Assembly (NCBI GenBank): GCA_022478985.1
Contig: JAKSZP010005265.1
Location: forward strand, 339,227-403,226
Length of the DNA stretch: 64,000 nt
Source of the DNA: Massospora cicadina
Lineage: Eukaryota; Entomophthoromycota; Entomophthoromycetes; Entomophthorales; Entomophthoraceae
Direction of reading: 5' to 3'
The translations under genes and the position numbers were made by a program. Below are positions 20,229-60,384 of the stretch, in pieces (the stretch's first letter is position 1; the number at the start of each line of letters is the position of its first letter). The notes below the pieces were generated by a model that was not told where the DNA came from, did no database searches, and saw only the letters and a list, made by a program, of their open reading frames with translations.

Positions 20229-20520
20229 GTTATTATTTAACCAAGGCAAGCCAACCAGGGGACAGGCATTACCAAAAGAAAGAAATGACATGAAACCTGA
20301 ACAAGGTCAACTCCGTTGAAGAAAGTTTTTCCACCTGCAGATTGAGACTCAAATTTTTCTGTTTACGTCATGGGTAAGGTTTTCGTGTTATTAGACCTAC
20401 TAACCGCCAATAACTTCCTTTGGCTGGCACACCAATCGATGTGCGAAGGGCAGGAATTGAACCTGCAACCTTCAGGTTGGTAGCTGTACGCCCTTACCAA
20501 CTCGCCTTCCACCCCCTTAC
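20229..20520 (-). mobile_element. SINE-B: tRNA-derived SINE with the LINE-type 3' tail
   Basis: A complete 292-bp SINE flanked by the perfect 15-bp duplication AAGGCTCATGTTTTT (20214-20228 and 20521-20535). On the minus strand it starts with a tRNA-like head (boxes A and B, T stem GCAGG/CCTGC), continues with an unrelated body of about 150 bp and ends with the segment around TGTCCCCTGGTTGGC (20273 to 20245), followed by an AT-rich run. That last segment is the one ending the HAL elements and, in variant form, the LINE. It has no coding capacity and is presumably retrotransposed by the LINE's ORF2 protein. Confidence 0.9.
20453..20506 (-). promoter_or_regulatory. Internal Pol III promoter (boxes A and B) of SINE-B
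   Basis: Box A GGCGAGTTGGT (20506 to 20496) and box B GGTTCAATTCC (20463 to 20453; consensus GGTTCGANTCC, 10 of 11). The tRNA fold is partial: the T stem is perfect, while the acceptor stem has about 5 of 7 pairs, so this is a tRNA-derived head and not a working tRNA gene. Confidence 0.8.
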
Positions 20521-22016
20521 AAGGCTCATGTTTTTATGAGGCCCACGTTCTGAGTCATTATGATACTCATATCACCTTCTCCCAGCCTGTGAGCCTCACC
20601 TAGAATTGTATCAGGAAATGCTACCCATTCTGAATGCTGATGCTACCATTACTGAGATATTAAATTACCTTTAGCGCTACACCCTTACTTTTGGCGCTCC
20701 TGATACTAAGCCTTGTAAAAAGGAGTTAAATTATTCATTTACTGACTTCAACCACTAACAAAGACTTGAAAAAAGCTCAGGTGGATTAAAACAAGATATT
20801 CTACATCCTTTGAACATTCAAGAATCCAAGATAATGACTAAAGTTAATGGAATGCAACCTCATCTCAGAAACTTCCTTTACAAATTTAACCACCAATTTT
20901 TTGGGGCTCTGTGGCCTGAGGTAACCAAAGATTAATTAAATTTCTTAAGTGAATACAGTTGAAGTTCACATGATCACTGGCCCAATAATTACTTTGAGAG
21001 TCCTTATGTTGATATCAATGTATACAACATTTCATTTTGGGCAATTGTGGACGGCGGAGCCCCCGTCAATTTAGTTCCCTAAAACTATTAAAAAATTGGA
21101 GTTTAAACTTGATATTGACCACGGAAAAGGATATGACACTGTAAGCCCTAATGTCACTACTTCACTAGTAGCATATAGCTCTTTACCACCAGGGCTTAAT
21201 AAAAAAGTGCTGGCTTCTCCAGCTACTGTTTTACTTCATGACAATTATGAATTATTTATTAGTGTTTCTTTATGAGGAAATTTAAGCATAAAGCCAATTT
21301 TTGAAGATAATATTTTGGAGTCAGGCGGACATTACATCCCCTTGTATTATAACTTTGTTCCACCAAGGATGAATTTGGCCTGGTGGGCAAAGCTATTGAG
21401 CGTTTGATTGGTTTAATGAGATTTTGATTCCATCGTTGGATGATTAAAAGGCGGATCTTCTGTCAGAAGTTGATTATCTCCAAGAGCATAATATGCATAT
21501 TGTACAATGCAGCTTCCATTGACAGCACAAGCTGAATCCATTGCTCAATTTGAGTCATCATCACAAATTTCCTTAATTGTGTAGGTTGAGTTTGATGGGG
21601 TAATTATCACTATTGCTTATTGTAAAGGTGGTTAAAATACATTAAACGTACCTCAACTGATTATGAAGTCCAATAGGATCCTTCTATGCTTGAAAAAAGC
21701 ATGCAATTAAACCAGGGCATAAGGCCCTTGTTTATATTGATATTAGTCAGCAACTTTCTGATGTTCTGTATGGTAAGATTCTCCTGCCTTTTTCCCGATC
21801 CAAAAAGGATTCTGTCATTGACTCTGGTGTGGTTTATTCTCATCAGGGAAAAATCAAGGTGTCTTTGGAGAACACCTACACTTATCAGTGCATATATAGA
21901 AGCATCAAATGATTTCTTATGTTTATGTGCTGCCTGGCCTAACAGCCTCACCCTCTTAGCTACCATCTAACCCCTCTGCATTCTTAGTTTAATGTTTAGT
22001 CAAGTAGGTGGAATTT

Positions 22017-22600
22017 TGCAATTTGGTATGATTAAACATGCAATTAGGACAATTTTTATTTTTAGACTAAGGTTCTAATTCTCAGGCCTTGATGCTGAGA
22101 TTTATCTTTCAAGTAGAACTACGTAAAATTACCTTGATCACATTCCCAAGTTTTAATGTAAGCTAAATATCGATTAAGGATCAAATTTCTACTATTTTGC
22201 CAGCAATATCCCCTGAATCACTTACTATTGGTCTACTATGCTTTTTGGCGTCATAAATTGACTCCATTTCTAATATTTTCTCCCCTGCCATGCCAGCATA
22301 AAATAATTGTCAAGAGGTTTATCCCCAAGAAAATTTAAGCTAATGATGTCTACCATTTTTCAGAATACTATGCGCTGCTTGATACTCTACCATGTAGTTT
22401 ATTATAATTGGAATGTAGAATTATGGGGATCTTTTCTTTCACCTAGCTGCTTTTTTGATATATAATAAAAAACCTTTGACAAATATTTTGTTTATCTTCT
22501 GTTTTTAGGCTACTTTCTATATACAGTTTCTCTTATTATTTATTATAGAATATACTGACCTTTGCAGTTTTTATCAACGCCACCATCGCCTTTCACAACA
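22017..22600 (+). repeat. gypsy-4 3' LTR
   Basis: 584 bp, the direct repeat of 18643-19257, preceded by a weak purine tract (CAAGTAGGTGGAA). Confidence 0.85.
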
Positions 22601-23071: not shown

Positions 23072-25421
23072 TATCACAATCAGACTAACGACAGTTGTGG
23101 CATTCATTTCTTTATTGCAACATATTAACGTACTAAACTGAAGGTTTACAACGCCTCTCTTCACTTGATTAATACCTCTATTTTAGCGCTAAGTCTAATC
23201 TAAGACCTCTAATTATGCTTATCATTAGCTTATCAGGTTAGATACATGCTGATCGGATGAACCAAGTGCTTTGCCAACCCTCTGAATAGTTCCCTCATTG
23301 ATGCGCAGGTAATTCCACTGAATATAGGTATTAAGGCTTCCTTGGAGAATCAAGAGGTCCACAATCTTGATTTCTATGCACTTTTAATATTTATTTGAGG
23401 TAAGCTTTTCAGGAGACGAATATTACCAAAACTAAAAAACTAAAACCTAACGTAACTAATTGAATTAAACAAAACGCCCAAAATGAGCGGATTGACTGAT
23501 ACTAATCAAAAACAACCAGCCAGGTGGGCAGCGGAAAATTTCTTATCTGACCATGGTGGAAGGGGAGGGGGATCAGGGTGCTCATCTTTGACAACAGCTT
23601 CCTCATCCTAGAGTAGGACATGGGCCAAGACGGAGAGCAAGGGCATCAGGGCATCAGCGGAATGTGGTTCAATATTGCTAAAGCTTGGTATCACATGGAA
23701 ATTGCCAGCTAAAAAATGGCGCTGATATACTCAGCTAAAGCTTTTTTGGCTTTAATGAAGGCATCTTGATTTTAATATATGTGGTAATATTGGTTCAGGT
23801 AATCTTAGCTTTATGATTCCGCTCTACAGTTACCACATTATGGATAGCATTGTTGGCATCTTTGTGTAATTGATTCATTGCATTCTTTATTGTGGTGTGA
23901 GGGTTGAAGGGATAACCGGAGGGGAGATACCTCCTGTGAGCATTGCCACTGATTTGGCAACAGCTTTGCAGAGGGGATGACAATCTGGCGTGGCAGCTGC
24001 TTTGACTGCAAGCTGGTGGCCACTGCAAAATGGTTCAGCATTTGGCTGTGGGCATATAAATAAAGGGGTATTTGGCGCCCCATTCTGAATTATAGAACCG
24101 CTCAATTTGTAGAGATAGTTCTTCTATTTAATTACCTTATTCGTCAATTTCAGCCAATAACCCATGGTTCTGGTAAATTAAATTGGGGAATCAGTATATG
24201 GTTGATGATTGCTTGCTTTGGTGGCAGCATGGGGGTAAACCATTTTCATTATTGTCCATGATTGGTGGTGGCATCTGTGGCACTGGGTGGTGGTGGAGCC
24301 TGATTGGTTGTTGCAGTTTTATTTGTAATTGTAGGCTTTGGAGGATGGGCAGGATAGTACCTCATACTGCAAAAATCATGGGGTTGGTAGCAGAATGTAT
24401 TCTGGTTTATGAGGGTGCAGATCCAGCAGAAGCCACCAGAAATGGGCATATGCATTTTAGTGTCTGACTTGAAACAGGATGGATAAATAGCCCATCCACA
24501 CTCGATGCATGCCCAGAATGGATGGTTGGGGGCAGATGGGATGGCATAACGGGAAGGAAATGCCAAAGCAATTTTATTACAATTAGAGCTGATTGTGGCA
24601 AAAACCAAGGCCCATATTGGCACGTGGCCCCATTTGGGACCACAAATTGTAGGATGGGGTTGTAGAACTGGCTGCCAAACCTTCCATCAGCTCCTCATGA
24701 AGCACCTTGGGAGGAAGGTGAGTGGGCAAAAGTAGCAAACTGGACCACCAAAGTGGTGTCTTCTGGGAGCCACATCTGAGTGGTGGGAATAGGGGTACTC
24801 TGGAAAATCAGGGGCACAGTTGCCACAGTGGCAGCATCAGCTTCACATGTGAAGCCCAAGTTGAAATACCCCTTGTAGGGGCGAAAGTTTATGAATCTGG
24901 AAGGTTGCATCACCGCCTGAGGTATTTTATTTATTTGTTTATCATTATATAGGAATAAATTCCCATATTCAACCCAAAGGCCAAAACGCATGATACTCTG
25001 GGGAGCATCATAGGACAGCGATGCACTGCCTGGGTACACAAAAGATGGGTGTCACGATCCTTGGGTGGCTTGAACTGACCCAAGATTTTGGTGGGACTGG
25101 ATGAACCAGTCCAAGCGCATTTTCCCACCGGATGAAAAATGCTGGGGGAGTTTTGCTGCTGCCTCACATTTGAGCAGCCAGTGGAGAATCTGATGACATG
25201 GTTTAGGATCAGCGGTCAGAAGTCCAAATTTATCTTAGTTTACTTTTTAAAGTCGCTTGTAAAGTAACACCAGTGCAAAAAGAAATTTTTATGTAGTTTT
25301 AGCCTTTTAATTATAAGATATTTTCCTAAATTTAAACAATATTCATAATTTTTTGGGCTTTGTTTTTGACATTCTGATCCCATGAGTTTAGGATCATTTT
25401 GGCGTTATTTGGTTTATCACA
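23072..25421 (+). repeat. TRIM-1 left LTR, split by HAL-B
   Basis: Two parts, 23072-23387 and 25289-25421, match the right LTR in order (TTCCCTCATTRATGYGCAGG left of HAL-B; TTTTCCTAAAT...TTTAGGATCATT...GGTTTATCACA right of it). Without HAL-B and one duplication it is about 435 bp. Confidence 0.75.
23388..25288 (-). mobile_element. HAL-B: ORF1-only LINE relative, decayed
   Basis: About 1.90 kb on the minus strand. The 3' tail segment (GGTAA...TTACC ends, core CGTCTCCTG) is at 23399-23427; the 5' end (TTTCTTTTTGCAC...) is near 25288. The flanks CTATGCACTTTTAA (23374-23387) and TTATGTAGTTTTAG (25289-25302) match at 10 of 14, an aged target duplication. Translated pieces align with HAL-C: G-K-C-A-W-T-G-S-S-S-P, F-I-N-F-R-P-Y-K-G-Y-F-N-L-G-F, P-E-D-T-T-L-V-V-Q-F-A. 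The zinc knuckle (near 24475) keeps only part of its Cys/His set. Stops and shifts prevent a full protein. Confidence 0.85.
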
Positions 25422-26690: not shown

Positions 26691-26701
26691 TTATCTAATA
26701 T

Positions 26702-26737: not shown

Positions 26738-26829
26738 AGATTACATATTATCTTTAAATTTTTAAATTTATTGTGGGGAAGGCCGACCATGGGACGGACA
26801 CTTCTGAATATGACTTAGACAAGACGAAA

Positions 26830-29800
26830 CTTGGTACCAGGGAGGCACCCCAGAGAAGCGATGCTATCTCTTGTTGCCAGCGGGAACGCCACTTATGGGA
26901 AAAGGGGAGGGAACGTGTGTAGGGGACGTAGCCACTATTGAGCACGTGTGGAGGAAGGGGTCTGATTTGATGAACCAGACTGGGAACCAGGAGGAGACCA
27001 GCTGTCGGCGACGCGGTGGGAGATATCCAAACATCCACACTTGAAAGTGATCCACCAAATGAGACCGGAATCTGTGGACAGCTTCAGGGAGGGTGGGGAT
27101 GGATCCAGCGATAGCATCCAAGACAATCGTGTGGATAGTCCACATGGCGATTGCAACCACCAGAGCACGGAGGGAGGGTGGGAGGGGGAGGCCATTAAAG
27201 AAGCAAACATATCTCTTAACAGACTGAAGGGATGTGTTTAATCCTGGCCTAGCAGAAGTTGGATTTCGCGCCATATTACTTTAGAGGTGGAGCACTTCTC
27301 CAGGCGGTGAAACAGCGTTCCATACTGGCCACACATGACACAGGATGAGTGTAAAGCATTAGAGCGCTCAGCTGTACGATACACCCGCCTCAGGCAGCGC
27401 CACACATGGGAGCGGACTTGAGGCTGCAACAGAGGATGGTGTGCGTATTTCCAGATAGTCTTTTGGGTCTCAGTGGAATAAGGGATGTCCATCATGTCCA
27501 GGTAGTCCACCCTGGATTTGACTTGGGGCCGAATGAGGATCACGCCATCATGGATGGGTAGCCCGTGTACCTCTTGTGTGAACTGAGGAGGGGGCGGCCT
27601 CTTTGGGTTGTATGTCCACTAATACAAAATCTCAACTCTGCGCTTCGCATGGAGAGTAGGATTCGTTTGTAGTGGGTTTTGGTCCCGTGAGGACCTGTGG
27701 CTGATGTGTGTGATGCGAGGTATTTCATCAGGGAGTGGGGGTTTGATGGATTGTTGAGGCCCAAGGCTCAGGAGAAGTTGGAGCGGGCCGCGCGGGACCA
27801 GTGTTGTAATGGGAGTGTAGGAGCAGTGACGGCTGCAATCCAGGTGCCTAGGATCTTGGCGGCATGGGCTTTGAAGTCAAGTAGGCCCATGCCACCATGA
27901 TAATGAGGGCCAAACATGACCTCTAGCCGTACTGGTGGAGGGCGGCCTGACCAAAGCCAACCTTGTAGCAAAGCATACAGGGATTTGAAGAAGCTTGGGG
28001 AGAAGGGGATGGCATGGGCTCCGAACCAGAATTTGGATAGGAGCATAGAGTTGGCAAGAACAACCCTGCCAGTGAGGGTAGTAGGGTGGGCTCTGAGAGA
28101 GGCGATTTGCTTCATCACGTTGTCCAGTATATGGCACTCCATTACTGCTGACGCATATCCACCTGCCTCCAACCACACGCCCAGATGGCGTACCGGTCCT
28201 ATGGTAGGTTGTGGCACAAAGGGGAGCACCAGTGGAGCGGTGTGTTTTAAGTTAGTAAGGCGTGGACGTGGGCGAGCAGATGGGCCGGGTTGGGAACTAC
28301 TTGCTGGGGCCCAGCAGTTCTGAAACTGACCAAGGAGGATGGTTTCGATTTTGGAGGCGTTCAGTGCCGCATTGCTTACCCGGGAATATTCCTGGATGAG
28401 GGCTTCAAGCGTGCGTGCATCTTTGTTATTAGACACCCCCACCACGCAATCATCTGCAAATGCCATCATCTTGACTGGGGTTTGGCCTGGCACATGGATC
28501 CTAGTGAGTTGGGCATTCACATTTCGCAGTAGTGGGTCAAGGCTGAAGTTGTATAAGAGTGGGCTCAGGGGGTCCCCTTGTCGCAGGCCCCTTTGAGGAC
28601 GGACTACTTCTGTTAGGAAACCTGGGCCGCGCACTGCCATTGTTGCAGATTCCGTGAGCAGCATCACCCAGTTAATGAAGCGGGGAGGTAGGCGGAATTG
28701 ATGGAGGCAGGCCCTAAGGTATTCCCAGTTTACTCTATCATAGGCCTTTTGTTTGTCCAAGAATACAAGTGCCCCAGAGGTAGTGGACTGACACACATTA
28801 GCCACAGAGTGCACGTTATCCCAAATTGACCTTTTGGGGATGAAACCAAATTGTTTAAAAGGAGATGGTGGCAGATGCTACAGTCCCTAAACGGTTAGCC
28901 ATGATTTTTGTTAAAATTTTGGTGTCTGTGTTTGTTAGAGAAATGGGGCGCCAGTTGGCTAAGTCTAGCCTATCCCCTTTCTTGAAGAGTGTGACCATAA
29001 AGGCCTCATGTCCTCCTGGTAGGAGGCGCGTTTCCAACAGGCTTTGGTTGAGTGAGGCTAGCAGCAATGGGGATATATATTTAAAATATTTTTTGTAGAA
29101 CTCATATGGAATGCCATCTGGGCCTGGGTATTTTCGGTTTGGCACACCGCGAATGGTAGTCCATAATTCGTTTGGAGTAATTAAATTAATTATTTCTGGG
29201 TATCAGAAAATGGTGTAGATATGAGCTCTGTCGAGAAATTCCGCCATTTTGGCCAGCTGAATTGGTTCAGCTCAGTATAACTCGGAGTAATATCTTTGCA
29301 TTTTGATTGCCACTTCAGCCGGTGTGTCCACAATAGAATTATCTGATCTTCGCACCTGTGTGCAGGCCATGCTCTGGTGTGGTGCAAAATTTTTTTGAAG
29401 AAGTATGCGGTGCACTTGTCACCTTTAGTGATGCATGTGGCCCTGTATTGGACACAAACCCAATGTTTGTGTTGCCTTTCAAGTGCGTTGAGGTGGGTGG
29501 CTGCCTCCGCCCACTTCTGGCCCAATGCAGGGCTATATCCTGAGGCTGGAATATTGGACTCCAAGTGGGTCAATTCCGCCAGCGCACACGATATAACTGC
29601 CAATGTGGCTCATGAGCGTCTGGATGAGAGATGGTGATAGTGGCGGATAGTGTCTTCTTTGAAAATTGCCCATGTGGAAATGGGGTCCGCACAAAATGGT
29701 GCAACAAACGATTTTGCCAAAGTTGCCTCTTCCACCCACATGGAAAATCCTGGTGACGCAAGCTCTGGGGGCGGATTTTGCACCAATGTGGGGCCTTTGC

Positions 29801-30520
29801 AGCTGTGACGGGTAAGTGGTATGTTATTGAGACCAGTCAGTGGTTGGAGAATTCCATTTTCATTGTTTTGAAGTGGGAGATGTGGGGTTGGAATTTCGCT
29901 GGTGCTAGAATAAGGTTGATGCAGGTCATGGACCTTAATTGGCCGTTGTGGACGTGGGGACATGTCATGTTTTTGAGCAATGGGGCATGTCACGGCAGCG
30001 CATCCATTATCCCAAGGGTGGCTTTTAGAATGCGTAGTTCTACATGACCCTGTGGGGCGTGGGGTGAGGGCAGCCACTGGTCCGTTGGTGAGGTTAGCCA
30101 ACAGTTCATGTCGCCAATTAGGAAAGAATCGGGGGGTAGTGGGAGGGATTTGACCATCGAGAAAAATTCCTGACGCTCTTGTGCACTGTTTGGGGTGTAA
30201 ATGTTGACGATTGTGTGTGCAACATTAGCCCATGAGAAGGTGACAACGAGCACTCGGCCATTTAGGAATGTTTCTGAAGATGTAAATTTGAAAAAATTGT
30301 TTTTCTGAATTAGCACCCCACAGTGCTTCAACCAAAAGGATAGGGATGGTGGGAGCATTGTTTTCCAAGCTTCCTCAGAACCTTGTGGACAGTGGGACTC
30401 CTGGATGGCCAGGATATCCACGGGTAAATTATTTTGTAAAAAACTCAGTTTCCTAGCCCAGGACGGGGAGGCCTTGAGTCTGGCAATATTCAGCATCCCT
30501 AGAGTGAAGGTTTGCCCCAT
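26830..30520 (-). pseudogene. LINE L1 ORF2: APE endonuclease and reverse transcriptase, broken
   Basis: ATG at 30520. The endonuclease (29990-30520, 176 aa open) has L-A-I-Q-E-S-H, N-I-Y-T-P-N and L-I-G-D-M-N-C-W, the Glu/Asp/Asn catalytic blocks of APE nucleases. The RT (29145-27768) has G-P-D-G-I-P-Y-E-F-Y-K, N-W-R-P-I-S-L-T-N, F-L-D-K-Q-K-A-Y-D-R-V-N, G-L-R-Q-G-D-P-L-S-P and the palm F-A-D-D. The C-terminal part (27543-27238) has C-V-M-C-G-Q-Y-G-T-L-F-H-R-L-E-K-C, a C-x2-C-x7-H-x4-C knuckle usual in LINE ORF2. No RNase H domain was seen. Breaks lie near 29150-29990 and 28850. The protein nicks the target and primes cDNA there. Confidence 0.92.
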
Positions 30521-31930
30521 CGCACCTTAGGTGTGAGGGGTGGGCCCCCAGGCCTGCCAGCCTCTTCCAGGTCCCCACGGGCTTTCACAGCAGCGCGGGT
30601 ATTAGCAGCAACGCTATTGGGGTTTTTGTTAATTTTTGTGGAAAGAGTCGCGTTGGCTTTGGCCTCCGCTTTTTGTTTTCCCGACGTCGGACGAATTTTT
30701 GTGGTGCGGATAAGTTCAGTGCACCGTCGAGGGGGGCAAAAATTTTTTTGGTTGGGATAGGTCCCAAGTCAGTTTTGACTGGGGCTTGGGTGCAGCGATT
30801 GGGTGAGATCAAATCTCCCATCAGATCCTCAGATTGAGTGGCCCATTCAGCATGGGCCTCCCAATCTGATTGGGTGATGGATTCCCGAGTTGCTTCCACT
30901 GTGAAGGTCTCCAAGACCTCCTGGCATTGTGAGTGTGGGATGGTGGTGGTGGCCTTGGCCGCTTCCTTGGCCGCGGTCCTAAGGGCCTGCTTGGCCTTCT
31001 TCCTCTCCTGCGGGGAGATGGGCTTTACCAATAGGTAGCAGCCTTGTGCTCCCCACGGGAAAGCCTCCTTGGTGCTTGCGGTTGGTTTGTAGTGCGCCTC
31101 TCCGCTGGCCATGGCCGCTGAGGGGTGCTCTTGGAATGTGACGCCCTCTTTGATGGGGCATGCATACACCTTATGGCCAAACGCATCACAGTGGGTGCAA
31201 ATGGGGCGCGCTGTCCATGGTTACCCAAAATAGGTGGGTGGTGTGCCCTGCGATGTCAATAAAGGTGGAGTGCGGGATCTGGGTTAGGTCCTTTGCGACT
31301 CCTCAGTTGGGGTCAGAACTGCGATGGCTTTGCTGGTGCACAGGTGTGGCATCAGCGTGAAACGTTGCATTTCGAAAGATTGTATTTCGCTGTATATGGC
31401 AAGACCATCTTTCAGGTGTTGCTCCAAAATGTCACGTTTTACCATAGTAGGCAAAAAGTCAAACGTGAGGAAAATTTGGTTTGATTTTGTCCATCTGGTG
31501 CGTTTAGTTTCAACGACCTGTTGCCCTTTGGGGAGGTTGACCACTATGCACACCGCTGCAGCCTCATCTGCTGCTATTTTGCTTTTGAAACCTAGGTCCA
31601 GCCAACTGCGTGACATGGAGTGAGGTGCAACGTACACCGCGGTCAGGAAAATTTTGTGTACATCTTCACAAAATTTTTCCCATAGGGCCATTTTTGGATG
31701 TCCAGATACACATGGACTCTGAATTCCAACGACAAAAGTGGCTGGGAATGTGGCGTATTGATGTACTGGTTGCATCGTTCTTACCACACAGTATCTCTGG
31801 GGAAATTGTGACCACCAGTTTTTTTAGATTTTTCTATTCCGCCGGATTCTCCGGGGCGTTTTTGAATGATAGAGGCCGCGGGCCTTCCACCTGCTCCTCT
31901 TGCCTTGCTTGCCCAACTGCTCCCAGACAT
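30521..31930 (-). pseudogene. LINE L1 ORF1: RRM-like and CCHC RNA-binding protein, frameshifted
   Basis: ATG at 31930, shared with L2 and L3 (M-S-G-S-S-W-A-S-K-A in L2). The open block 31284-31787 (167 aa) contains S-W-L-D-L-G-F-K-S-K-I-A-A-D-E-A-A-A and I-F-L-T-F-D-F-L-P-T, an RRM-like region. The knuckle C-T-H-C-D-A-F-G-H-K-V-Y-A-C (about 31165-31210) is intact. A second open block, 30585-31169, is basic and Ala/Lys-rich. ORF1 proteins of this kind coat the LINE RNA and support target-primed reverse transcription. The junction with ORF2 reads GTGCGATGG, so the ORF1 stop seen in L3 is missing here. Confidence 0.88.
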
Positions 31931-32044
31931 GGGCGCAGACTAATCCCCTATATGAGATTATCAAACTAGATTTAGTCTTGAATTGAATGGGTTGCAAAAG
32001 TGTTTGCAACGAGAAAGAAAAGTTTTTAGATTACATATTATCTT

Positions 32045-32446: not shown

Positions 32447-32505
32447 ATAATATATGTTATGAAAACTATATTATAATTATTGCAACTTTAAACTTTTCTT
32501 TCTCA

Positions 32506-32523
32506 TTGCAAACACTTTTGCAA
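32506..32523 (+). promoter_or_regulatory. 5'-terminal hairpin of the LINE
   Basis: TTGCAAA-CACT-TTTGCAA forms a perfect 7-bp stem with a 4-nt loop, about 20 nt from the element's 5' end. It is present in L1, L2 and L3. A similar hairpin with different stem bases is at the same place in HAL elements. Confidence 0.6.
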
Positions 32524-32584
32524 CCCATTCAATTCAAGACTAAATCTAGTTTGATAATCTCATAGAGGGGATTAGTCTGCGCCC

Positions 32585-34023
32585 ATGTCTGGGAGCAGTT
32601 GGGCAAGCAAGGCAAGAGGAGCAGGCGGAAGGCCCGTGGCCTCTAACATTCAAAAACGCCCCGGAGAATCTGGCGGAATAGAAAAATATCTAAAAAAACT
32701 GGCGGTCACAATTTCCCCAGAGATACTCATGTGGCAAGCACGATGCAACCAGTACATCAACACGCCACATTCCCAGCCACTTTCATCGGTGGAATTTGGA
32801 GTCCGTGTGCATCTGGACATCCAAAAATGGCCCTATGGGAAAAATTTTGTGAAGATGTACACAAAAATTTCCCGACCGCGGTGTACGTTGCACCTCACTC
32901 CATGTCACGCGGTTGGCTGGACCTAGGTTTTGAAAGCAAAATAGCAGCAGATGAGGCTGCAGCGGTGCGCATAGTGGTCAACCTCCCTGAAGGGCAATGG
33001 GTCATCAAAACTAAACGTACCAGATGGACAAAATCAAACCAAATTTTCCTCACGTTTGACTTTTTGCCTACTACGGTAAAACGTGACATTTTGGAGCAAC
33101 ACCTGAAAGATGGTCTCGCCATATATGGCGAAATACAATCTTTCGAAATGCAACATTTCACACTGATGCCACACCTGTGCACCGGTAAAGCCATCGCAGT
33201 TCTGACCCCAACTGAGGAGATTGTGAAGGACCTAACCCAGATCCCGCACTCCACCTTTATTGACATCGCAGGGCACACCACCCACCCATTCCGGGTAACC
33301 ATGGACAGCGCGCCCCCATTTTCACCCACTGTGACGCGTTCAGCCATAAGGCACACACGTGCCCCATCAAAGAGGGCGTTACATTCCAAGAGCACCCCTC
33401 GGTGGCCATGGCCAGCGGAGAGGCGCACTACAAACCAACCGCAAGCACTAAAGAGGCTTTCCCGTGGGGAGCACAAGGCTGCTACCTATTGGTAAAGCCC
33501 ATCTCCCTGCAGGAGCATAAGAAGGCCAAGCAGGCCCATAGGACTGCGGCCAAGGAAGCGGCCAAGGTCACTACCACCATCCCACACTCACAACGCCAGG
33601 AGGACATGGAGACCTTCGCGGCGGAAGCAACTCGGGAATCCATCACCCAATCAGATTGGGAGGCCCAAGTCAAATGGGCCACTCAATCTGAGGATCCAAT
33701 GGGAGCTTTGATCTCACCCAATCGCTGCACCCAAGCCCCAGTTGAAACCAACTTGGGACCTATCCCAACCGAAAAAAAAATTTTGCCCCACTCAACGGTG
33801 CACCGAACTTATCCGCACCACAAAAAATTCGTCCGACGTTGGGAAAACAAAAGCGAAGGCCAAAGCCAACGTGACTCTTTCCACAAAAATTAACAAAAAC
33901 CCATATAGTGTTGCTGCTAATACCCACGCTGCTGTGAAAGCCTGTGGGGACCTGGAAGAGGCTGGTGGGCCAGGGGGCCCACCCCTCACACCTAAGGTGC
34001 GATGGGGGAAACCTTCACTCTAG
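32585..34023 (+). pseudogene. LINE L2 ORF1: RRM-like and CCHC protein, frameshifted
   Basis: Starts at the ATG shared by all full copies (32585), about 98 bp from the 5' end. Open pieces are 32585-32926, 32731-33495 (254 aa) and 33402-33893, in different frames. The RRM-like part (G-W-L-D-L-G-F-E-S-K-I-A-A-D-E-A-A-A, then T-F-D-F-L-P-T-T-V-K-R-D-I-L-E) is clear. In the knuckle (about 33312-33370) the first Cys is Phe and one base is missing. The end runs to TAG at 34021-34023 and overlaps the ORF2 start by 22 nt, because the stop TGA of L3 is CGA here. A 193-aa antisense frame (32895-33476) is only its shadow. Confidence 0.88.
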
Positions 34024-37000
34024 GGACGCTGAATATCGCCGGACTCAAGGCCTCCCCGTCCTGGGCTAGGAAACTGAGTTTTTTACAAAATAATTTACCC
34101 GTGGATATCCTGGCCATCCAGGAAACCCACTGTCCACGAGGTTCTGAGGATGCTTGGAAAACAATGTTCCTACCATCCCTATCCTTTTGGTTGAAGCACT
34201 ATGGGGTGCTAATTTGAAAAAATAATTTTTTTAAATTTACATCTTCAGAAACATTCCTAAATGACCGAGTGCTTGTTGTCACCTTCTCATGGGCTGATGT
34301 TGCACACACAATTGTCAACATTTACGCCCCAAACGGTGCACAAGAGCGTCAGGAATTTTTCTCGTTGGTCAAATCCCTCCTGCTACCCCCCAATTCTTTC
34401 CTAATTGGCGACATGAACTGTTGGCTAACCTCACCAACGGACTGGTGGCCGCCCTCACCCCATGCCCCACAGGGTCATGTAGAAGAACGCGTTCTAAAAG
34501 CCACCCTTGGGTTAATGGATGCGCTGCCGCGACATGCCCCACTGCTCAAAAACATGACACATCCCCACGTCCACAACGGCCAATTAAGGTCCATGACCCG
34601 CATTGACCTTATTCTAGCGCCGGCGAAATTCCAACCCCACATCTCCCACTTTCAAAACAACAAAAATGGAATTCTCCAACCACCGACTGGTCTCAATAAC
34701 ATACCACTTACCCGTCACAGTTGCAAAGCCCCACATTGGTGCAAAATCCGCCCCCAGAGCTTGCGTCACCAGGATTTTCCACGTGGGTGGAAGAGGCAAC
34801 TTTGGCAAAATCGTTTGTTGCACCATTTTGCGTGGACCCCATTTCCACATGGGCAACTTTCAAAGAAGACACCATCCGCCACTATCGCCATCTCTCATCC
34901 AGACGCTCACGAGCCACATCAGCGGTTATATTGCGTGCACTGGCGGAATTGGCCCACTTGGAATCAATATTCCAGCCTCAGGATATAGCCCTGCATGGGG
35001 CCAGAAGTGGGCGGAGGCAGCAGCCCACCTCAACGCACTTTGAAAGGCAACACAAACATCAGGTTTGTGTCCAATACAAGGCCACACGCATCATTTAAGG
35101 CGACAAATGCAAGCATACTTCTTCAAAAAAAATTTTGCACCACACCAGAGCATGGCCTGCACACAGGTGCGAAGATCAGATAATTTTATTGTGGACACAC
35201 CGGCTGAAGTGGCAATCAAAATGCAAAGATATTACTCCGAGTTATACTATGCTGAACCAATTCAACTGGCCAAAATGGCGGAATTTCTTGACAGAGCTCA
35301 TATCTGCACCATTTTCCGATACCCGGAAATAATGAATTTAATTACTCCAAACGAATTATGGACTACCATTCGCGGTGTGCCAAACTGAAAATACCCAGGC
35401 CCAGATGGCATTCCATATGAGTTCTACAAAAAATATTTTAAATATATATCCCCATTGCTGCTAGCCTCACTCAACCAAAGCCTGTTGGAAACGCGCCTCC
35501 TACCAGGAGGACATGAGGCCTTTATGGTCACACTCTTCAAGAAAGGGGATAGGCTAGACTTAGCCAACTGGCGCCCCATTTCTCTAACAAACACAGACAC
35601 CAAAATTTTAACAAAAATCATGGCTAACCGTTTAGGGACTGTAGCATCTGCCACCATCTCCCCTAAACAATTTGGTTTCATCCCCAGAAGGTCAATTTGG
35701 GATAACGTGCACTCTGTGGCTAATGTGTGTCAGTCCACAGCCTCTGGGGCACTTGTATTCTTGGACAAACAAAAGGCCTATGATAGAGTAAACTGGGAAT
35801 ACCTTAGGCCTGCCTCCAACAATTCCGCCTACCTCCCCGCTTCATTAACTGGGTGATGCTGCTCATGGAATCTGCAACAATGGCAGTGGCAAGTGGCCCA
35901 GGTTTCCTAACGGAAGTAGTCCATCCTCAAAGGGGCCTGCGACAAGGGGACCCCCTGAGCCCACTCTTATACAACTTCAGCCTTGACCCACTACTGCGAA
36001 ATGTGAATTCCCAAATCACTGGGGTCCATGTGCCAGGCCAAACCCCAGTCAAGATGATGGCATTTGCAGTGATTGCGTGGTGGGGGTGTCTAAAAATAAA
36101 GATGCACACGCGCTCGAAGCCCTCATCCAGGAATATTCCCAGGTAAGCAACGCGGCACTGAACGCCTCCAAAACCGAAATCATCCTCCTTGGTCAGTTTC
36201 AGAACTGCTGGGCCCCAGCAAGTAGTTCCCAACCCAGCCCAGCTGCTCACCCAAGTCCACGCCTTACTAACTCAAAACACACCGCTCCACTGGTGCTCCC
36301 CTTTGTGCCGCGACCTACCATAGGACCGGTACGCCATCTGGGCGTGTGGTTGGAGGCAGGAGGATACGCGTCGGCAGTAATGGAGGGCCATATACTGGAC
36401 AACGTGACTTAGCGAATCGCCTCTCTCAGAGCCCACCCTACTACCCTCACTGGCAGGGTTGTTCTTGCCAACTCTATGCTCCTATTCAAAGTCTGGTTTG
36501 GAGCCCACGCCATCCCCTTCTCCCCAAGCTTCTTCAAATCCCTGTATGCTTTGCTACAAGGTTGGCTTTGGTCAGGCCGCCCTCCACCAGTACGGCTAGA
36601 GGTCATGTTTGGCCCTCATCATCATGGTGGCATGGGCCTACTTGACTTCAAAGCCCCATGCTGCCAAGATCCTAGGCACCTGGATTGCAGCCGTCACTGC
36701 TCCTACACTCCCATCCCAACACTGGTCCCGCGCGGCCCGCTCCAACTTCTCCTGAGCCTTGGGCCTCAACAATCCATCAAACCCCCACTCCCTGATGAAA
36801 TACCTCGCATCACACACATCAGCCACAGGTCCTCACGGGACCAAAACCCACTACAAACGAATCCTACTCTCCATGTGAAGCGCAGAGTGGAGATTTTGTA
36901 TTAGTGGACATACAACCCAAAGAGGCCGCCCCTCCTCAGTTCACACAAGAGGTACACGGGCTACCCATCCATGATGGCGTGATCCTCATTCGGCCCCAAG

Positions 37001-45140: not shown

Positions 45141-45319
45141 TACAGTGTCAGCGCTACAGTTCTTTGGACTGCTTCCATAGTTTGCAGTGTCTCAAAGCTG
45201 GAAAAATTGGAAAGAGCGCCAAGGAGGAAACGGGAAAATGAGTTAGAATACTGAATATTTTAAATTTTAAATTTATTGCGGGGAAGGCCGACCATGGGAC
45301 GGACACTTCCGAATATGAC

Positions 45320-48300
45320 TCAGATGAGACAAAACTTAGTACCAGGTGAGGCACCCCAGAGAAGCGATGCTATCTCTTGTTGCCAGCGGATACGCTACTT
45401 ATGGGAAGGGGAGGGAACGTGTGTAGGGGGCGTAGCCACTATTGAGCACGTGTGGAGGAAGGGGTCTGATTTGATGAACCAGACTGGGAACCAGGAGGAG
45501 ACCAGCTGCCGGCGACGTGGTGGGAGATATCCAAACATCCACGCTTGAAAGTGATCCACCAAATGAGACCGGAATCTGTGGACAACTTCAGGGAGGGTGG
45601 GGATGGATCCGGCGATGGCATCCAAGACAATCGTGTGGATAGTCCACATGGCGATTGCAACCACCAGAGCATGAAGGGAGGGTGGGAGGGGGAGGCCATT
45701 GATGAAGCAAACATATCTCTTGACAGACTGAAGAGATGTGTTTGATCCTGGCCTAGCAGACGTTGGACTTCGCGCCATATTACTTTAGAGGTGGGGCACT
45801 TCTCCAGGCGGTGAAACAGCGTTCCATACTGGCCACACATGACACAGGATGAGTGTAAAGCATTAGAGCGCTCAGCTGTATGATACACCTGCCTCAGGCA
45901 GCGCCACACATGGGAACGGACTTGAGGCTGCAACAGAGGATGGTGTGCGTATTTCCAGATAGTCTTTTGGGTCTCAGTGGAATAAGGGATGTCCATCATG
46001 TCCAGGTAGTCCACCCTGGATAGGACTTGGGGTCGAGTGGGGATCACGCCATCATGGATGGGTAGCCCCTGTACCTCTTGTGTGAACTGAGGAGAGGGGC
46101 GGCCTCTTTGGGTTGTATGTCCACTAATATGAATTCTCCACTCTGCGCTTCGCATAGAGTAGGATTCGTTTGTAGTGGGTTTTGGTCCCGTGAGGACCTG
46201 TGGCTGATGTGTGTGATGCGAGGTATTTCATCAGGGAGTGGGGGTTTGATGGATTGTTGAGGCCCAAGGCTCGGGAGAAGTTGGAGCGGGCCGCGCGGGA
46301 CCAGTGTTGGGATGGGAGTGTAGGAGCAGTGACGGCTGCAATCCAGGTGCCTAGGATCTTGGCGGCATGGGCTTTGAAGTCAAGTAGGCCCATGCCACCA
46401 TGATGATGAGGGCCAAACATGACCTCTAGCCGTACTGGTGGAGGGCGGCCTGACCAAAGCCAACCTTGTAGCAAAGCATACAGGGATTTGAAGAAGCTTG
46501 GGGAGAAGAGGATGGCGTGGGCTCCAAACCAGACTTTGGATAGGAGCATAGAGTTGGCAAGAACAACCCTGCCAGTGAGGGTAGTAGGGTGGGCTCTGAG
46601 AGAGGCGATTCGCTTCGTCACGTTGTCCAGTATATGGCCCTCCATTACTGCTGACGCGTATCCTCCTGCCTCCAACCACACGCCCAGATGGCGTACCGGT
46701 CCTATGGTAGGTCGCGGCACAAAGGGGAGCACCAGTGGAGCGGTGTGTTTTGAGTTAGTAAGGCGTGGACTTGGGCGAGCAGCTGGGCTGGGTTGGGAAC
46801 TACTTGCTGGGGCCCAGCAGTTCTGAAACCGACCAAGGAGGATGATTTCAGTTTTGGAGGCGTTCAGTGCCGCATTGCTTACCCGGGAATATTCCTGGAT
46901 GAGGGCTTCAAGCGCGCGTGCATCTTTATTATTAGACACCCCCACCACGCAATCATCTGCAAATGCCATCATCTTGACTGGGGTTTGGCCTGGCACATGG
47001 ACCCCAGTGAGTTGGGAATTCACATTTCGCAGTAGTGGGTCAAGGCTGAAGTTGTATAAGAGTGGGCTCAGGGGGTCCCCTTGTCGCAGGCCCCTTTGAG
47101 GATGGACTACATCCGTTAGGAAACCTGGGCCGCGCACAGCCATTGTTGCAGATTCTGTGAGCAGCATCACCCAGTTAATGAAGTGGGGAGGTAGGCGGAA
47201 TTGTTGGAGGCAGGCCCTAAGGTATTCCCAGTTTACTCTATCATAGGCCTTTTGTTGGTCCAAGAATACAAGTGCCCCAGAGGCTGTGGACTGACACACA
47301 TTAGCCACAGAGTGCACGTTATCCCAAATCGACCTTCTGGGGATGAAACTGAATTGTTCTGGAGAGATGGTGGCAGATGCTACAGTCCCTAAACGGTTAG
47401 CCATGATTTTTGTTAAAATTTTGGTGTCTGTGTTTGTTAGAGAAATGGGGCGCCAGTTGGCTAAGTCTAGCCTATCCCCTTTCTTGAAGAGTGTGACTGT
47501 AAAAGCCTCATGTCCTCCTGGTAGGAGGCGCGTTTCCAACAGGCTTTGGTTGAGTGAGGCTAGCAGCAATTTGGATATGTATTTAAAATATTTTTTGTAG
47601 AACTCATATGGAATGCCATCTGGGCCTAGGCATTTTTGGTTTGGCGCACCGCGAGTGGTAGTCTATAATTTGTTCGGAGTAATTAAATTCATTATTTCCG
47701 GGTATCGGAAAATGGTGCAGATATGAGCTCTGTCGAGAAATTCTGCCATTTTGGCCAGCTGAATTGGTTTGGCTCGGTATAACTTGGAGTAATATCTTTG
47801 CATTTCAATTGCCACTTCGGCCGGTGTGTCCATGATAGAATTATCCAATCTTCACACCTGTGTGCAGGCCACACTCTGGCGTGGTGCAAAAAAATTTTTG
47901 AAGAAGTATGCGGTGCACTTATCACCTTTAGTGATGCGTGTGGCCCTGTATTGGACACAAACCTGATGTTTGTGTTGCCTTTCAAGTGCGTTGAGGTGGG
48001 CTGCTGCCTCCGCCCACTTCTGGCCCCATGCAGGACTATATCCTGAGGCTGGAATGTTGGACTCCAAGTGGGCCAATTCTGCCAGCACACGCGATATAAC
48101 CACCAATGTGGCTCGTGAGCGTCTGGATGAGAGATAGCGATAGTGGCGGATGGTGTCTTTTTTGAAAGTTGCCCATGTGGAAATGTGGCCGCGCAAAATG
48201 TGCAACAAACGATTTTGCCAAAGTTGCCTCTTCCACCCATGTGGAAAATCCTGGCGACGTTAGCTCTGGGGGGTGGATTTTGCATCAATGTGGGGCCTTT

Positions 48301-49022
48301 GCAACTGTGACGGGTAAGTGGTATGTTATCAAGACCAGTCAGTGGTCGGAGAATTCCATTTTCGTTGTTTTGAAGTGGGAGATGTGGGGTTGGAATTTCG
48401 TCGGTGCTAGAATAAGGTCAATGCGGGTCATGGACCTTAACTGGCCATTGTGGATGTGGGGACGCGTCATGTTTTTGAGCAGTGGGGCATGTCACAGCAG
48501 CGCATCCATTAACCCAAGGGTGGCTTTTAGAATGCGTAGTTCTACGTGACCCTGTGGGGCGTGGGGTGAGGGCGGCCACTGGTCCATTGGTGAGGTTAGC
48601 CAACAGTTCATGTCGCCGATTAGGAAAGAATCAGGGGGTAGCGGGAGGGTTTTGACCAATGAGAAATATTCCTGACGCTCTTGTGCACCGTATGGGGTGT
48701 AAATGTTGACAATTGTGTGTGCAACATCGGCCTATGAGAAGGTGACAACGAGCACTTGGTCATTTAGGAATGTTTCTGAAGATGTAAATTTGAAAAAATT
48801 GTTTTTCTGAATTAGCACCCCACAGTGCTTCAATCAAAAGGATAGGGATGGTAGGAGCATTGTTTTCCAAGCATCCTCGGAACCTCGTGGACAGTGGGTT
48901 GCCTGGATGGCCAGGATATTCACGGGTAAATTATTTTGTAAAAAACTCAGTTTCCTAGCCCGGGATGGGGAGGCCTTGAGTCCGGCAATATTCAGCGTCC
49001 CTAGAGTGAAGGTTTCCCCCAT
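45320..49022 (-). pseudogene. LINE L3 ORF2: APE endonuclease and reverse transcriptase, partly open
   Basis: ATG at 49022, overlapping the ORF1 stop as TGATG. The endonuclease part (49022-48300) is broken: an in-frame stop after L-P-S-L-S-F (near 48834) and further shifts. The RT core is open for 481 aa (46124-47569): N-W-R-P-I-S-L-T-N, F-L-D-Q-Q-K-A-Y-D-R-V-N, G-L-R-Q-G-D-P-L-S-P-L-L-Y-N and an intact F-A-D-D palm. The thumb and connection continue, then after one shift the 238-aa block 45439-46155 carries the knuckle C-V-M-C-G-Q-Y-G-T-L-F-H-R-L-E-K-C. The FADD palm and APE domain place it among APE-type LINEs; I cannot fix the clade by eye. Confidence 0.92.
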
Positions 49023-50443
49023 CACACCTTAGGTGCGAGGGGTGGGCCCCCTGGCCCACCAGCCTCTTCCAGGTCCCCACGGGCTTTCACAGCAGCGCGG
49101 GTATTAGCAGCAATGCTATCGGGGTTTTTGTTAATTTTTGCAGAAAGAGTCGCGTTGGCTTTGGCCTTTGCTTTTTGTTTTCCTGATGTCGGACGAATTT
49201 TTTGCAGTGCGGATAAGTTTGGTGCACCGTCGAGTGGGGCAAAAAAAAATTTTTTTTTGTTGGGATAGGTCCCAAGTCAGTTTCAACTGGGGCTTGGGTG
49301 CAGCGATTGGGTGAGATCAAATCTCCCATCGGATCCTCGGATTGAGTGGCCCGTTTGGCTTGGGCCTCCCAATCTGATTGGGTGATGGATTCCCGAGTTG
49401 CTTCCACCGCAAAGGTCTCCATGTCCTCCTAGCGTTGTGAGTGTGGGATGGTGGTGGTGACCTTGGCCGCTTCCTTGGCTGCAGTCCTATGGGCCTGCTT
49501 GGCCTTCTTCCGCTCCTGCAGGGAGATGGGCTTTACCAATAGGTAGCAGCCTTGTGCTCCCCACGGGAAAGCCTCCTTGGTGCTTGCGGTTGGTTTGTAG
49601 TGCGCCTCTCCGCTGGCCATGGCCGCTGAGGGGTGCTCTTGGAATGTAACGCCCTCTTTAATGGGGCACGCATGTGCCTTATGGCCGAACGCATCACAGT
49701 GGGTGCAAATGGGGGGCGCGCTGTCCACGGTTACCCAGAATGGGTGGGTGGTGTGCCCTGCGATAGTAATAAAGGTGGAGTGCGGGATCTGGGTTAGGTC
49801 CTTCGCGATCTCCTCAGTTGGGGTCAGAACTGCGATGGCTTTGCCGGTGCACAGGTGTGGCATCAGCGTGAAACGTTGCATTTCAAAAGATTGTATTTCG
49901 CCATATATGGCGAGACCATCTTTCAGGTGTTGCTCAAAATGTCACGTTTTACCGTAGTAGGCAAAAAGTCAAACGTGAGGAAAATTTGGTTTGATTTTGT
50001 CCATCTGGTGCGTTTAGTTTTGATGACCCGTTGCCCTTCGGGGAGGTCAACCACTACGCGCACCGCTGCAGCCTCATCTGCTGCTATTTTGCTTTCAAAA
50101 CCTAGGTCCAGCCAACCGCACGACATGGAGTGAGGTGCAATGTACACCGCGGTTGGGAAAATTTTGTGTACATCTTCACAAAATTTTTCCCATAGGGCCG
50201 TTTTTTGGATGTCCAGATACACATGGACTCCAAATTCCACCGACAAAAGTGGCTGGGAATGTGGCGTATTGATGTACTGGTTGCATCGTGCTTGCCACGC
50301 GAGTATCTCTGGGGAAATTGTGACCGCCGGTTTTTTTAGATTTTTTCTATTCCGCCAGATTCTCCGGGGCGTTTTTGAACGTTAGAGGCCGCGGGCCTTT
50401 CGCCTGCTCCTCTTGCCTTGCTTGCCCAACTGCTCCCAGACAT
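49023..50443 (-). pseudogene. LINE L3 ORF1: RRM-like and CCHC protein, frameshifted
   Basis: ATG at 50443. Pieces are 49923-50246 (RRM-like: G-W-L-D-L-G-F-E-S-K-I-A-A-D-E-A-A-A), 49429-49881 (150 aa with the intact knuckle C-T-H-C-D-A-F-G-H-K-A-H-A-C near 49670-49710) and 49087-49422 (basic C-terminal part). One base lost near 49936 and others break the frame. The stop is TGA inside GTGTGATGG, sharing its A with the ORF2 ATG. Such a stop-start overlap suggests that ORF2 is made by re-initiation after ORF1. Confidence 0.88.
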
Positions 50444-50854
50444 GGGCGCAGACTAATCCCCTCTATGAGATTATCAAACTAGATTTAGTCTTGAATTGAA
50501 TGGGTTGCAAAAGTGTTTGCAACGAGAAAAGAAAAGTTTAGAATACTGAATATTTTAATAAACTAAAAGGCTTTGATATTTATAGGGTGCATTGGGACTT
50601 GGTGCCTTCAGGATCATCAGGGCCTCATCCAATCAGGATCTTTACTGATCTTCTGGAATGGCCTCCTTGTGGGCGTCCTTATTGGATAGCGTCGCTCACC
50701 TGACTGAATGGGTGGAAATGCCGCCCCACGTGACTCAGGAATAGGTGAGGATGATCCTGAAATAGATTTAGCTCTAATAAGTTTGACAAACAATTTGGCA
50801 CGGCCTGATTCAGAAGATGGGAATTTGATATAATTTTTATCTTGAATCCCAAAA

Positions 50855-58375: not shown

Positions 58376-58392
58376 AATAAGGGTCTGTTGGG

Positions 58393-60384
58393 TAAGGCCT
58401 ATGATAGAGTAAACTGAGAATACCTTAGGGCCTGCCTCCAACAATTCCGCCTACCTCCCCGCTTCATTAACTGGGTGATGCTGCTCACGGAATCTGCAAC
58501 AATGGCAGTACGTGGCCCTGGCTTCCTAACAGAAGTAGTCCGCCCTCAAAGGGGCTTGCGACAAGGGGACCCCCTCAGCCCACTCTTATACAACTTCAGC
58601 CTTAACCCACTACTGCGAAATGTGAATGCCTAACTCACTGGGGTCCATGTGCCAGGCCAAGCCCCAGTCAAGATAATGGCGTTCATAGATGATTGTGTGG
58701 TTGGGGTGTCTAATAATCAAAATGCACGCGCGCTTGAAGCTCTCATCCAGGAGTATTCCCAGGTAAGTAACGCGGCACTGAACGCTTCCAAAACTGAAAT
58801 TATCCTCCTTGGTCGGTTTCAGAACTGCTGGGCCCCAGCAATTTGTTCCCAACCCGGCCCATCTGCTCGCCCACGTCCTCGCCCTACCAGCTTAACACAC
58901 ACCGCCCCACTGGTGCTCCCCTTCGTTCCACGCCCTACCATAGAACCGGTACGCCATCTGGGCGTGTGGATGGAGGCAGGAGGATACGCATCAGCAGTAA
59001 TGGAGTGCCATATTCTGGACAACGTGATGAAGTGAATCACCTCTCTCAGAGCCCACCCTACTTCCCTTACTGGCAGGGTTGTTTTAGCCAACTCTATGCT
59101 CCTCTCCAATGTCTAGTTAGGAGCCCACGCCATCCCCTTCTCCCCAAGCTTCTTCAAATCCTTATATGCCCTGCTGCAAGGATGGCTTTGGTCAGGCCGC
59201 CCTTCACCAGTACAGCTAGAGGTCATGTTTGGCCCTCATCATCATGGAGGCATGGGTCTGCTCGACTTCAGAGCCCATGCTGCCAAGATCTTGGGTACCT
59301 GGATAGCAGCCGTCACTGCCCCTATGCTCCCCTCCCAACACTGGTCCCGCATGGCCCACTCCAACTTCTTCCAAGCCTTGGGCCTCAACAACCCATCTAA
59401 CCCCCACTCCCTGATAAAATACCTCGCATCACACACATTGGCCACAGGCCCTCACGGGACTAAAACCCACTACAAACGAATCCTCCTCTTCATGTGGAGC
59501 GCTGAGTGGAGAATTTGTATTAGCGGACACACAGCCCAGAGAGGCCGCCCCTCTCCTCAGTTCACACAAAAGGTACAGGGGCTACCCATCCAAGATGGCA
59601 TGATCCCCACACGGCCCCATGTCCTATCCAGGGTGGACTACCTGGACATGATGGACATCCCTTACTCCATTGAGACCCAAAAACTATCTGTAAATACGTA
59701 CACCATCCTCTGTTGCAGCCTCAAGTCCGCTCCCATGTGTGGCGCTGCCTGAGGTGGGTGTATCGTACAGCTGAGCGCTCTAACGCTTTACACTCATCCT
59801 GTGTCATTTGTGGCCAGTATGTAACGCTTTTCCACCGCCTGGAGAAGTGCCCTACCTTTAAAGTGATATGGCGCGAAGTTCAACGTCTGCTGGGCCAGGA
59901 TCAAACGCATCCCTTCAGTCTTCCAAGAGATATGTTTGCTCTATCAATGGCCTCCTCACTTCCACCCTCCCTCTGTGCTTTGGTGGTTGCAATCGCCATG
60001 TGGACCATCCACACGATTTTCTTAGATGCCATCGCAGTCTCCACCCCCACCCTCCCAGAAGCTGTCCACAGATTCTGGTCTCATTTGGTGGACCACTTTC
60101 AATCGTGGATGTTTGAATACCTCCCACCGCGTTGCTGACAGCTGGTCTCCTCCTGGTCCCCAGTCTGGTTCATCAGATCAGACCCCTTCCTCCACACATG
60201 TTCAATTGTGGCTAAGGCCCCTTCACACGTTCCCTCCCCCTCCCCATAAGTGGCGTTCCCGCTGGCAACAAGAGATAGCATCGCTTCTCTGGGGTGCCTT
60301 CCCTGGTACTAAGTTTTGTCTCTTCTGAGTCATATTCAGAAGTGTCTGTACCATGGTCAGCCTTCCCCGCAATAAATTAAATTA
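58393..60384 (+). mobile_element. LINE copy L4, 5'-truncated (2.0 kb)
   Basis: Bounded by the perfect 17-bp duplication AATAAGGGTCTGTTGGG (58376-58392 and 60385-60401). It starts inside the RT at K-A-Y-D-R-V-N and runs to the 3' segment (60338-60368) and AT-rich tail. Lack of the first 3.3 kb is the normal outcome of incomplete target-primed synthesis. The duplication overlaps the end of the gypsy-5 LTR by seven bases (TGTTGGG), so L4 landed on the LTR border. Confidence 0.92.
58395..60330 (+). pseudogene. LINE L4 ORF2 fragment (RT palm to C-terminus)
   Basis: Contains G-L-R-Q-G-D-P-L-S-P, a palm with F-I-D-D in place of F-A-D-D (58682), the thumb, and the C-terminal knuckle C-V-I-C-G-Q-Y-V-T-L-F-H-R-L-E-K-C near 59800. 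Open blocks are 58649-59035, 59225-59752 and 59713-60138. Stops occur near 58415 and 59035, with a frameshift near 59690. It has no start and cannot make an active protein. Confidence 0.9.

Follow-up and report, generated by a model that had tools for sequence, protein, structure and literature searches.

Three kinds of retroelement with one 3' end

The 64,000-nucleotide stretch of Massospora cicadina DNA analysed here (positions 339,227 to 403,226 of contig JAKSZP010005265.1; hereafter the window) carries copies of a long interspersed nuclear element (LINE), termed LINE_A, of half-LINEs (HALs) that code for the first open reading frame (ORF1) only, and of a tRNA-headed short interspersed nuclear element (SINE). 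All three kinds of element share a 3'-terminal hairpin of about 29 nucleotides, in which a 5-bp basal stem surrounds the core TGTCYGTCCC(A/C)TGGTYGGC (Table 1). An earlier note, made from the letters of the window, had proposed one conserved hairpin on LINEs, ORF1-only half-LINEs and the SINE, and in this it proved right.

Self-comparison of the window gave pairwise identities of 93.8-94.7% for the full-length LINE_A copies L1, L2 and L3. The ORF fragments of the window LINEs matched RVT_1 above its cut-off, and zf-RVT fell slightly under its own. Judged by these domains, LINE_A is a LINE with an apurinic/apyrimidinic (APE)-type endonuclease and a reverse transcriptase (RT) in ORF2, the Exo_endo_phos match lying just below threshold (23.9 versus a cut-off of 24.5). 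The best matches of the RT among solved structures were L1 (68 bits) and R2 (62 bits). A second family of about 5.2 kb, LINE_B, is absent among the ten tails described for the window and was found in other loci; four of the five copies examined are full length, with 90-91% identity, and the family matches RVT_1. Its ORF1 is 40% identical to that of LINE_A over 186 aa; the RT fragments of the two families share 48-59% protein identity and differ at 259-273 of 394-415 third positions.

HAL-A, HAL-B and HAL-E each align in part with HAL-C. The HAL-C ORF1 had no Pfam match, and it is 31% identical to the LINE_B ORF1 over 164 aa and 30% identical to the LINE_A ORF1 over 74 aa; an AlphaFold model of it was not used, its mean predicted local distance difference test score being 35.5. 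In loci whose stem is of the GTAC type (see below), HAL bodies were colinear up to the tail, without ORF2. With an ORF1 homologous to that of LINEs and no ORF2, these elements are classed as half-LINEs. Between HAL-C and HAL-E, the ORF1s show 169, 121 and 232 differences at codon positions 1, 2 and 3 (389 codons); the lineages differ mainly at third positions, so ORF1 has been kept as a protein. The HAL-C ORF1 is at most 93% identical to Massospora cicadina hypothetical proteins, and 11 of 12 homologues bear that species name. Related proteins were also seen on short contigs: P0007 (587 aa), related to HAL ORF1 (41% identity), and P0014 (614 aa), related to the LINE RT (36%), so that the two lineages may not be confined to this genome. 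No relatives of P0007 and no matches to the core pattern were found in viral contigs.

Two tails assigned to half-LINEs by the earlier note fared less well. The body of HAL-D groups with the HALs in the tree described below, but its tail is degraded and was missed by the tail profile. For HAL-F, which carries the tail, no HAL or LINE tested matched the body, and its assignment as a HAL was rejected; its position, 15383, moreover falls beyond the range 20229-60384 given for the ten tails. HAL-A is split by an insertion of about 6 kb with direct repeats about 85% alike (845-1481 and 6422-6908) and an RVT_1 frame at 4173-4631, probably a long terminal repeat retrotransposon.

A B box was present in five of five SINE copies (among nine sequences examined), and an A box was seen by eye only; ARAGORN reported no tRNA genes in the window or in nine tail loci. 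The B box at the 5' end, together with the target-site duplications described below, identifies the element as a tRNA-derived SINE.

Table 1. Retroelement features of the window, with the evidence for each
Feature	Position	Strand	Evidence
LINE_A copy L1, full length	26755..32030	-	self-alignment; 17-bp target-site duplication
L1 3' hairpin (AGAAG/CTTCC)	26775..26805	-	letters read out, fold, profile
LINE_A copy L2, full length	32489..37765	+	self-alignment; 15-bp target-site duplication
L2 3' hairpin (GGAAG/CTTCC, core one base short)	37716..37745	+	letters read out, fold, profile
LINE_A copy L3, full length	45260..50540	-	self-alignment; 21-bp target-site duplication
L3 RT frame	46124-47404	-	RVT_1 1.9e-27
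L3 3' hairpin (GGAAG/CTTCC)	45280..45310	-	letters read out, fold, profile
LINE_A copy L4, 5'-truncated	58394..60389	+	self-alignment; 17-bp target-site duplication
L4 3' hairpin (AGAAG/CTTCC)	60338..60368	+	letters read out, fold, profile
Half-LINE HAL-C, ORF1 only, ~2.5 kb, 5' end approximate	39482..41927	-	self-comparison; colinear copies in other loci
HAL-C ORF1, 461 aa, zinc-knuckle-like CCHC	39886..41271	-	homologous to LINE ORF1
HAL-C 3' hairpin (AGTAC/GTACC)	39482..39510	-	letters read out, profile
Half-LINE HAL-B, 5' end approximate	23399..25139	-	self-comparison
HAL-B hairpin (GGTAA/TTACC)	23399-23427	-	letters read out, profile
Half-LINE HAL-E, 5' end approximate; degraded hairpin 44909-44938	43156..44938	+	self-comparison, profile
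HAL-D degraded 3' end	38246..38275	-	body groups with HAL
'HAL-F' hairpin, body unassigned	15383..15411	+	tail profile, E 1.5e-7
Half-LINE copy HAL-A, split by repeat-flanked retroelement	257..7583	-	two blocks match HAL-C
tRNA-headed SINE-B	20245..20515	-	B box; 15-bp flanking repeat AAAAACATGAGCCTT
SINE-B hairpin (GGTAA/TTGCC)	20245-20273	-	letters read out, profile

Abundance and fold of the hairpin

When the letters were read out, the segment stood at each of the ten tail coordinates, in the form described or a degraded one. A profile built on 38 tails from every family, among them eight of the ten window tails (not L2 or HAL-D), recovered nine of the ten at E<0.01, HAL-D being the one missed. 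The earlier note had given the LINEs and the HAL/SINE group separate cores. The first, TGTCCGTCCCATGG, is exact in two of the four window LINEs (L1 and L3) and the second, TGTCCCCTGGTTGGC, in one of six HAL/SINE copies (SINE-B); both are fragments of the single core given above, and the distinction was dropped. Rfam gave no match at gathering scores.

Genome-wide counts were made on 1,469,884,898 bases in 16,968 contigs; the published assembly is described as 1.488 Gb in 19,694 scaffolds, with 92% transposable elements (PMC9584336). The exact core TGTCCGTCCCNTGGTYGGC occurs 5,379 times (2,707 + 2,672), and a reversed-pattern control gave 0 + 0 matches; its abundance is far above chance. From the first 100 places of this core in contig order we obtained DNA for 90 (L009-L098), the last 10 listed being left out of the counts. 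Selected on the core and independently of the basal stem, these loci comprised by body 64 LINE_A, 5 LINE_B, 8 HAL_C, 6 HAL_B, 4 SINE and 3 unassigned copies. Hairpin tails at L029, L066/L115, L091 and L165 have no recognisable body upstream; perhaps they are insertions truncated nearly to the hairpin, or additional short families.

In the predicted RNA fold, the 5-bp basal stem is separated by a U bulge from a G-C pair, and that pair by another U bulge from a CCG/YGG helix; beyond a U.U mismatch, a CC/GG helix closes a 3-nt loop, and an AT-rich tail comes after the hairpin. This structure is common to the tails of six families, with energies between -6.7 and -12.0 kcal/mol, and three cross-family chimeras (-6.2, -5.4 and -5.1 kcal/mol) lose the complete basal stem. 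Among the window tails, all five basal pairs form in L2, L3, HAL-B and, counting a wobble, SINE-B; four form in L1 and L4 (with an outermost A.C), HAL-C and HAL-F, and three in HAL-E. The common fold is not adopted by HAL-E, HAL-F or HAL-D, the last having no comparable fold, and is partial in HAL-B.

Compensated changes in the basal stem

Among the 90 loci picked by core, stem type tracked element family. The four inner arm bases read GAAG/CTTC in 57 of 64 LINE_A tails, GTAA/TTAC in four of five LINE_B and three of six HAL_B tails, GTAC/GTAC in six of eight HAL_C tails and GTAA/TTGC in three of four SINEs, and deviating arms were one or two changes away from the family type. Pairs -1/+1, -2/+2, -3/+3 and -4/+4 form in 87, 89, 85 and 87 of the 90 loci, respectively, with different bases: -1/+1 is G-C in 61, A-U in 17 and C-G in 6, and -3/+3 is A-U in 62, U-A in 17 and U-G in 5. 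Among the 31 distinct 29-mer tails, 92.7% of cells were paired (versus 86.1%), 29 cells had changed on both sides (versus 11.3) and the covariation score was 0.236 (versus 0.117); none of 500 shuffles reached any of these values, and the highest score in a slid register was 0.114. Genome-wide, we counted 1,212 tails with GTAA..TTAC arms, 385 with GTAC..GTAC and 1,665 for all four arm combinations, GTA(A/C)..(T/G)TAC, each control giving 0; in 68 of the 1,665 (4.1%) the arms are mismatched.

A tree of 37 LINE rows, built from ORF2 C-terminal DNA with the tail excluded (L018 having been dropped from 38), placed a single AAG/CTT versus TAA/TTA switch on a branch with support 100/100, two rows remaining ungrouped. 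The HAL tree (18 rows, after removal of L022, L106 and L124 from 21, and with W_HALD given the TAA/TTA label by default) likewise held one stem switch at 100/100; it has four long branches, and its TAC/GTA clade includes the divergent L130. Searches that specified the stem supplied 10 of 12 LINE_B rows and 6 of 8 TAC/GTA rows, and the 5 LINE_B and 8 HAL_C loci picked by core are consistent with these. In a sampling independent of the exact core, 17 tails found by the profile (9 window tails and 8 from the flanks of other loci), stems again mostly followed family, with one mismatched pair in a LINE_B copy and several degraded arms; this set is not fully independent, because the profile was seeded with such tails. 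The pair counts, the 31-tail test and the two trees agree with the claim that the basal stem has undergone compensatory change.

Insertion mode and neighbouring features

Target-primed reverse transcription is an established mechanism. Target-site duplications were found on LINE, HAL and SINE copies. All four window LINEs carry one (Table 1), and L3 has an empty-site paralogue in the contiguous 56531-56937, matched by 45151-45262 on one side and by 50537-50852 on the other; the two matches overlap by 21 bp, the length of the duplication. Two of three HALs tested had duplications at the junction (L022, 18 bp; L136, 16 bp), as did two of three SINEs testable by script, L054 with 16 bp and L051 with 12 bp, the latter within the shuffle range (maximum 13). 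Two more SINE duplications were read by eye, in L076 and in SINE-B of the window. The scripted junction test gave none for L009, L137 and L018; it did not locate the junctions of L076 and L016, and L003 was left out. The duplications on all three kinds of copy show target-primed reverse transcription for each of them.

A 51-bp palindrome at 26668-26718, with 16-bp ends ACCATCTAGTACTAAA, adjoins L1; the end motif recurs at 32427-32442 and, inverted, at 942-957, and the palindrome is possibly a small DNA element. The window also contains a direct repeat of about 725 bp (15938-16662 and 17035-17758; 86% identity, spacing 1,096 bp).

A candidate recognition hairpin

We read the last ~30 nucleotides as a LINE recognition hairpin of the stringent type that is used also by the non-autonomous half-LINEs and the SINE, and put the probability of this reading at roughly 0.78. 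As the core counts and the profile show, a specific 3'-end sequence is common to the LINEs and their presumed partners, and fold and pair counts agree on a conserved stem-loop, with few independent events. The ORF2 protein of the LINE would most likely grip the hairpin, recognizing the basal stem by its shape and the inner core by its sequence. Reverse transcription would then start at the AT-rich tail from the nicked target, and the half-LINEs and the SINE would most likely be copied in trans by the same protein.

Several observations weigh against this reading. The longest stop-free frame across the four window LINEs is 512 codons, so that none of them is taken to hold an intact ORF2. The fold of the HAL_B tail, at -6.7 kcal/mol (z -0.72), is weak and near the best chimera control (-6.2), and both inner arms are intact in only three of the six HAL_B tails among the 90 loci. 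The outermost pair, -5/+5, forms in 67 of the 90; its 5' base is often A, which breaks the pair and may reflect CpG decay. Such decay also fits the variation in the inner stem (CCG to CTG, CGG to TGG or CAG), which we therefore rejected as covariation; the inner helix is conserved, but covariation does not prove it. In the shuffle test, two counts were unexceptional: 466 of the 500 shuffles reached the 2 co-varying pairs and 106 reached the 11 further pair types. Moreover, relatedness of the sequences alone can beat shuffles without any structure. Finally, with one switch in each tree, the three compensated pair changes fall on just two branches: the pattern is clear and the events are few.

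Which LINE serves which partner

The earlier note took the window's own LINE as the donor. LINE_B is the closer match: its stem, GGTAA/TTACC, is that of HAL-B, and the SINE stem is identical but for one wobble. LINE_B tails are mostly followed by CAGTTAAAT, without AATAAA, and some HAL_B copies share CAGTTAAAT. The 25 GTAA-stem loci comprised 14 LINE_B, 10 HAL and 1 unassigned copy. For the HAL-C stem no LINE partner appeared: the 52 GTAC-stem loci sampled of 385 comprised 45 HAL_C, 6 divergent HAL and 1 unassigned copy, and none of the 52 tails adjoins a LINE. Median distances from the family majority were 4.0% for LINE_A (n=68), 4.0% for LINE_B (15), 3.1% for HAL_C (15), 11.5% for the SINE (5) and 16.9% for HAL_B (15); many of these copies were picked by core or stem, and L099-L103 and 14 duplicate places had been dropped (127 to 113).

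Possibly, recognition is strictly one-to-one, each basal stem being a private key for its own LINE under the same mechanism. GGAAG would then belong to LINE_A, GGTAA to LINE_B together with HAL_B and the SINE, and the GGTAC of HAL-C to an extinct or unsampled third LINE. Such keys would fit the tracking of family by stem type and the downstream CAGTTAAAT common to LINE_B and some HAL_B copies. HAL-C is young, however, and yet its stem type was not found on a LINE in the sampled loci; moreover, a swapped stem is tolerated by zebrafish L2 elements, as reported in PMC4176376. We regard strict one-to-one recognition as rather unlikely.

Also tentatively, we suggest that one pool of LINE RT serves the whole guild of at least two LINEs, two half-LINE lineages and a tRNA SINE, recognition depending on shape in the basal stem and on sequence in the inner core. 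On this view HAL-C would have acquired a compensated stem of its own (A-U to C-G), present on no LINE here, and would nevertheless have spread; and coding constraint would have maintained ORF1 in the half-LINE lineage, making it an enduring ORF1-only partner instead of a short-lived deletion product.

Other explanations for the shared end

The tail could be shared by descent or recombination alone, with no present role. The homology of the LINE and HAL ORF1s makes a common origin of the ends plausible. In the 60 nt upstream of the hairpin, however, LINE_A and LINE_B show little similarity (z 1.7), and of 15 between-family comparisons the only clear one was between LINE_A and its older subfamily A2 (z 10.0); LINE_A/HAL_C (z 2.4) and LINE_A2/LINE_B (z 2.3) were borderline and the other 12 ranged from -0.7 to 1.7. 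That the core is shared while most family flanks are unalignable, the RTs of LINE_A and LINE_B being as divergent as they are, supports the recognition hairpin, and the compensated basal-stem changes also speak against a passive tail. We consider mere inheritance or capture improbable. That the hairpin is a 3'-end processing or polyadenylation signal is very improbable: CAATAAAT or AATAAAT does stand just 3' of it in LINE_A and HAL-C tails, but LINE_B tails mostly have CAGTTAAAT instead, and the SINE, presumably transcribed by Pol III, bears the same hairpin.

Comparison with known systems

This kind of system is already known; the host group, this hairpin and its guild appear to be new. For the zebrafish L2 LINEs, it has been shown that the part of ORF2 lying between endonuclease and RT binds the stem in a general way and the loop in a specific one (PMC4176376). 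ZfL2-1, ZfL2-2 and eel UnaL2 resemble the Massospora elements in having a 3' stem-loop, which in theirs is needed for copying; they belong to the L2 clade and have experimental proof, whereas the Massospora system is known from sequence alone (PMC4176376). L1-clade LINEs of maize and sorghum (ME1 lineage) share a hairpin end of about 50 nt with ZmSINE2 and ZmSINE3; there too, changes in the stem are compensatory, and letters of the loop are conserved. The host is a plant, the sequence is another, and the relevant part of that account mentions no ORF1-only partner (PMC3747384). The same source lists fungal pairs in which a tRNA SINE carries a LINE 3' end, Mg-SINE with MgL in Magnaporthe and SINE2-1_BG with Tad1-24_BG (HaTad1-3, 1-5) in Blumeria; the fungi differ, the LINE clade is another by name, and no hairpin is described in the part concerned (PMC3747384). 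The name HaTad1 suggests half elements. Mammalian HAL1, a half-L1, is likewise described as a non-autonomous LINE derivative encoding only ORF1p (PMC5753468); mammalian L1 is of the relaxed, poly(A) type (PMC3747384), whereas the Massospora half-LINE ends in a specific hairpin. A LINE expansion in M. cicadina has been described, in an account whose relevant text does not contain "SINE" as a whole word (PMC10515909), and searches of the open-licence literature, which excludes subscription papers, turned up no account of a hairpin of this kind from Massospora or Entomophthorales.

With these elements, an early-diverging fungus would join the LINE/SINE systems that have a common recognition hairpin, and an ORF1-only partner would stand beside the SINE, in thousands of copies. 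The family-specific compensated stems amount to a natural mutant series for asking whether L1-like ORF2 proteins read the shape of the stem or its sequence, and they may bear on how relaxed, mammalian-type recognition evolved from stringent recognition.

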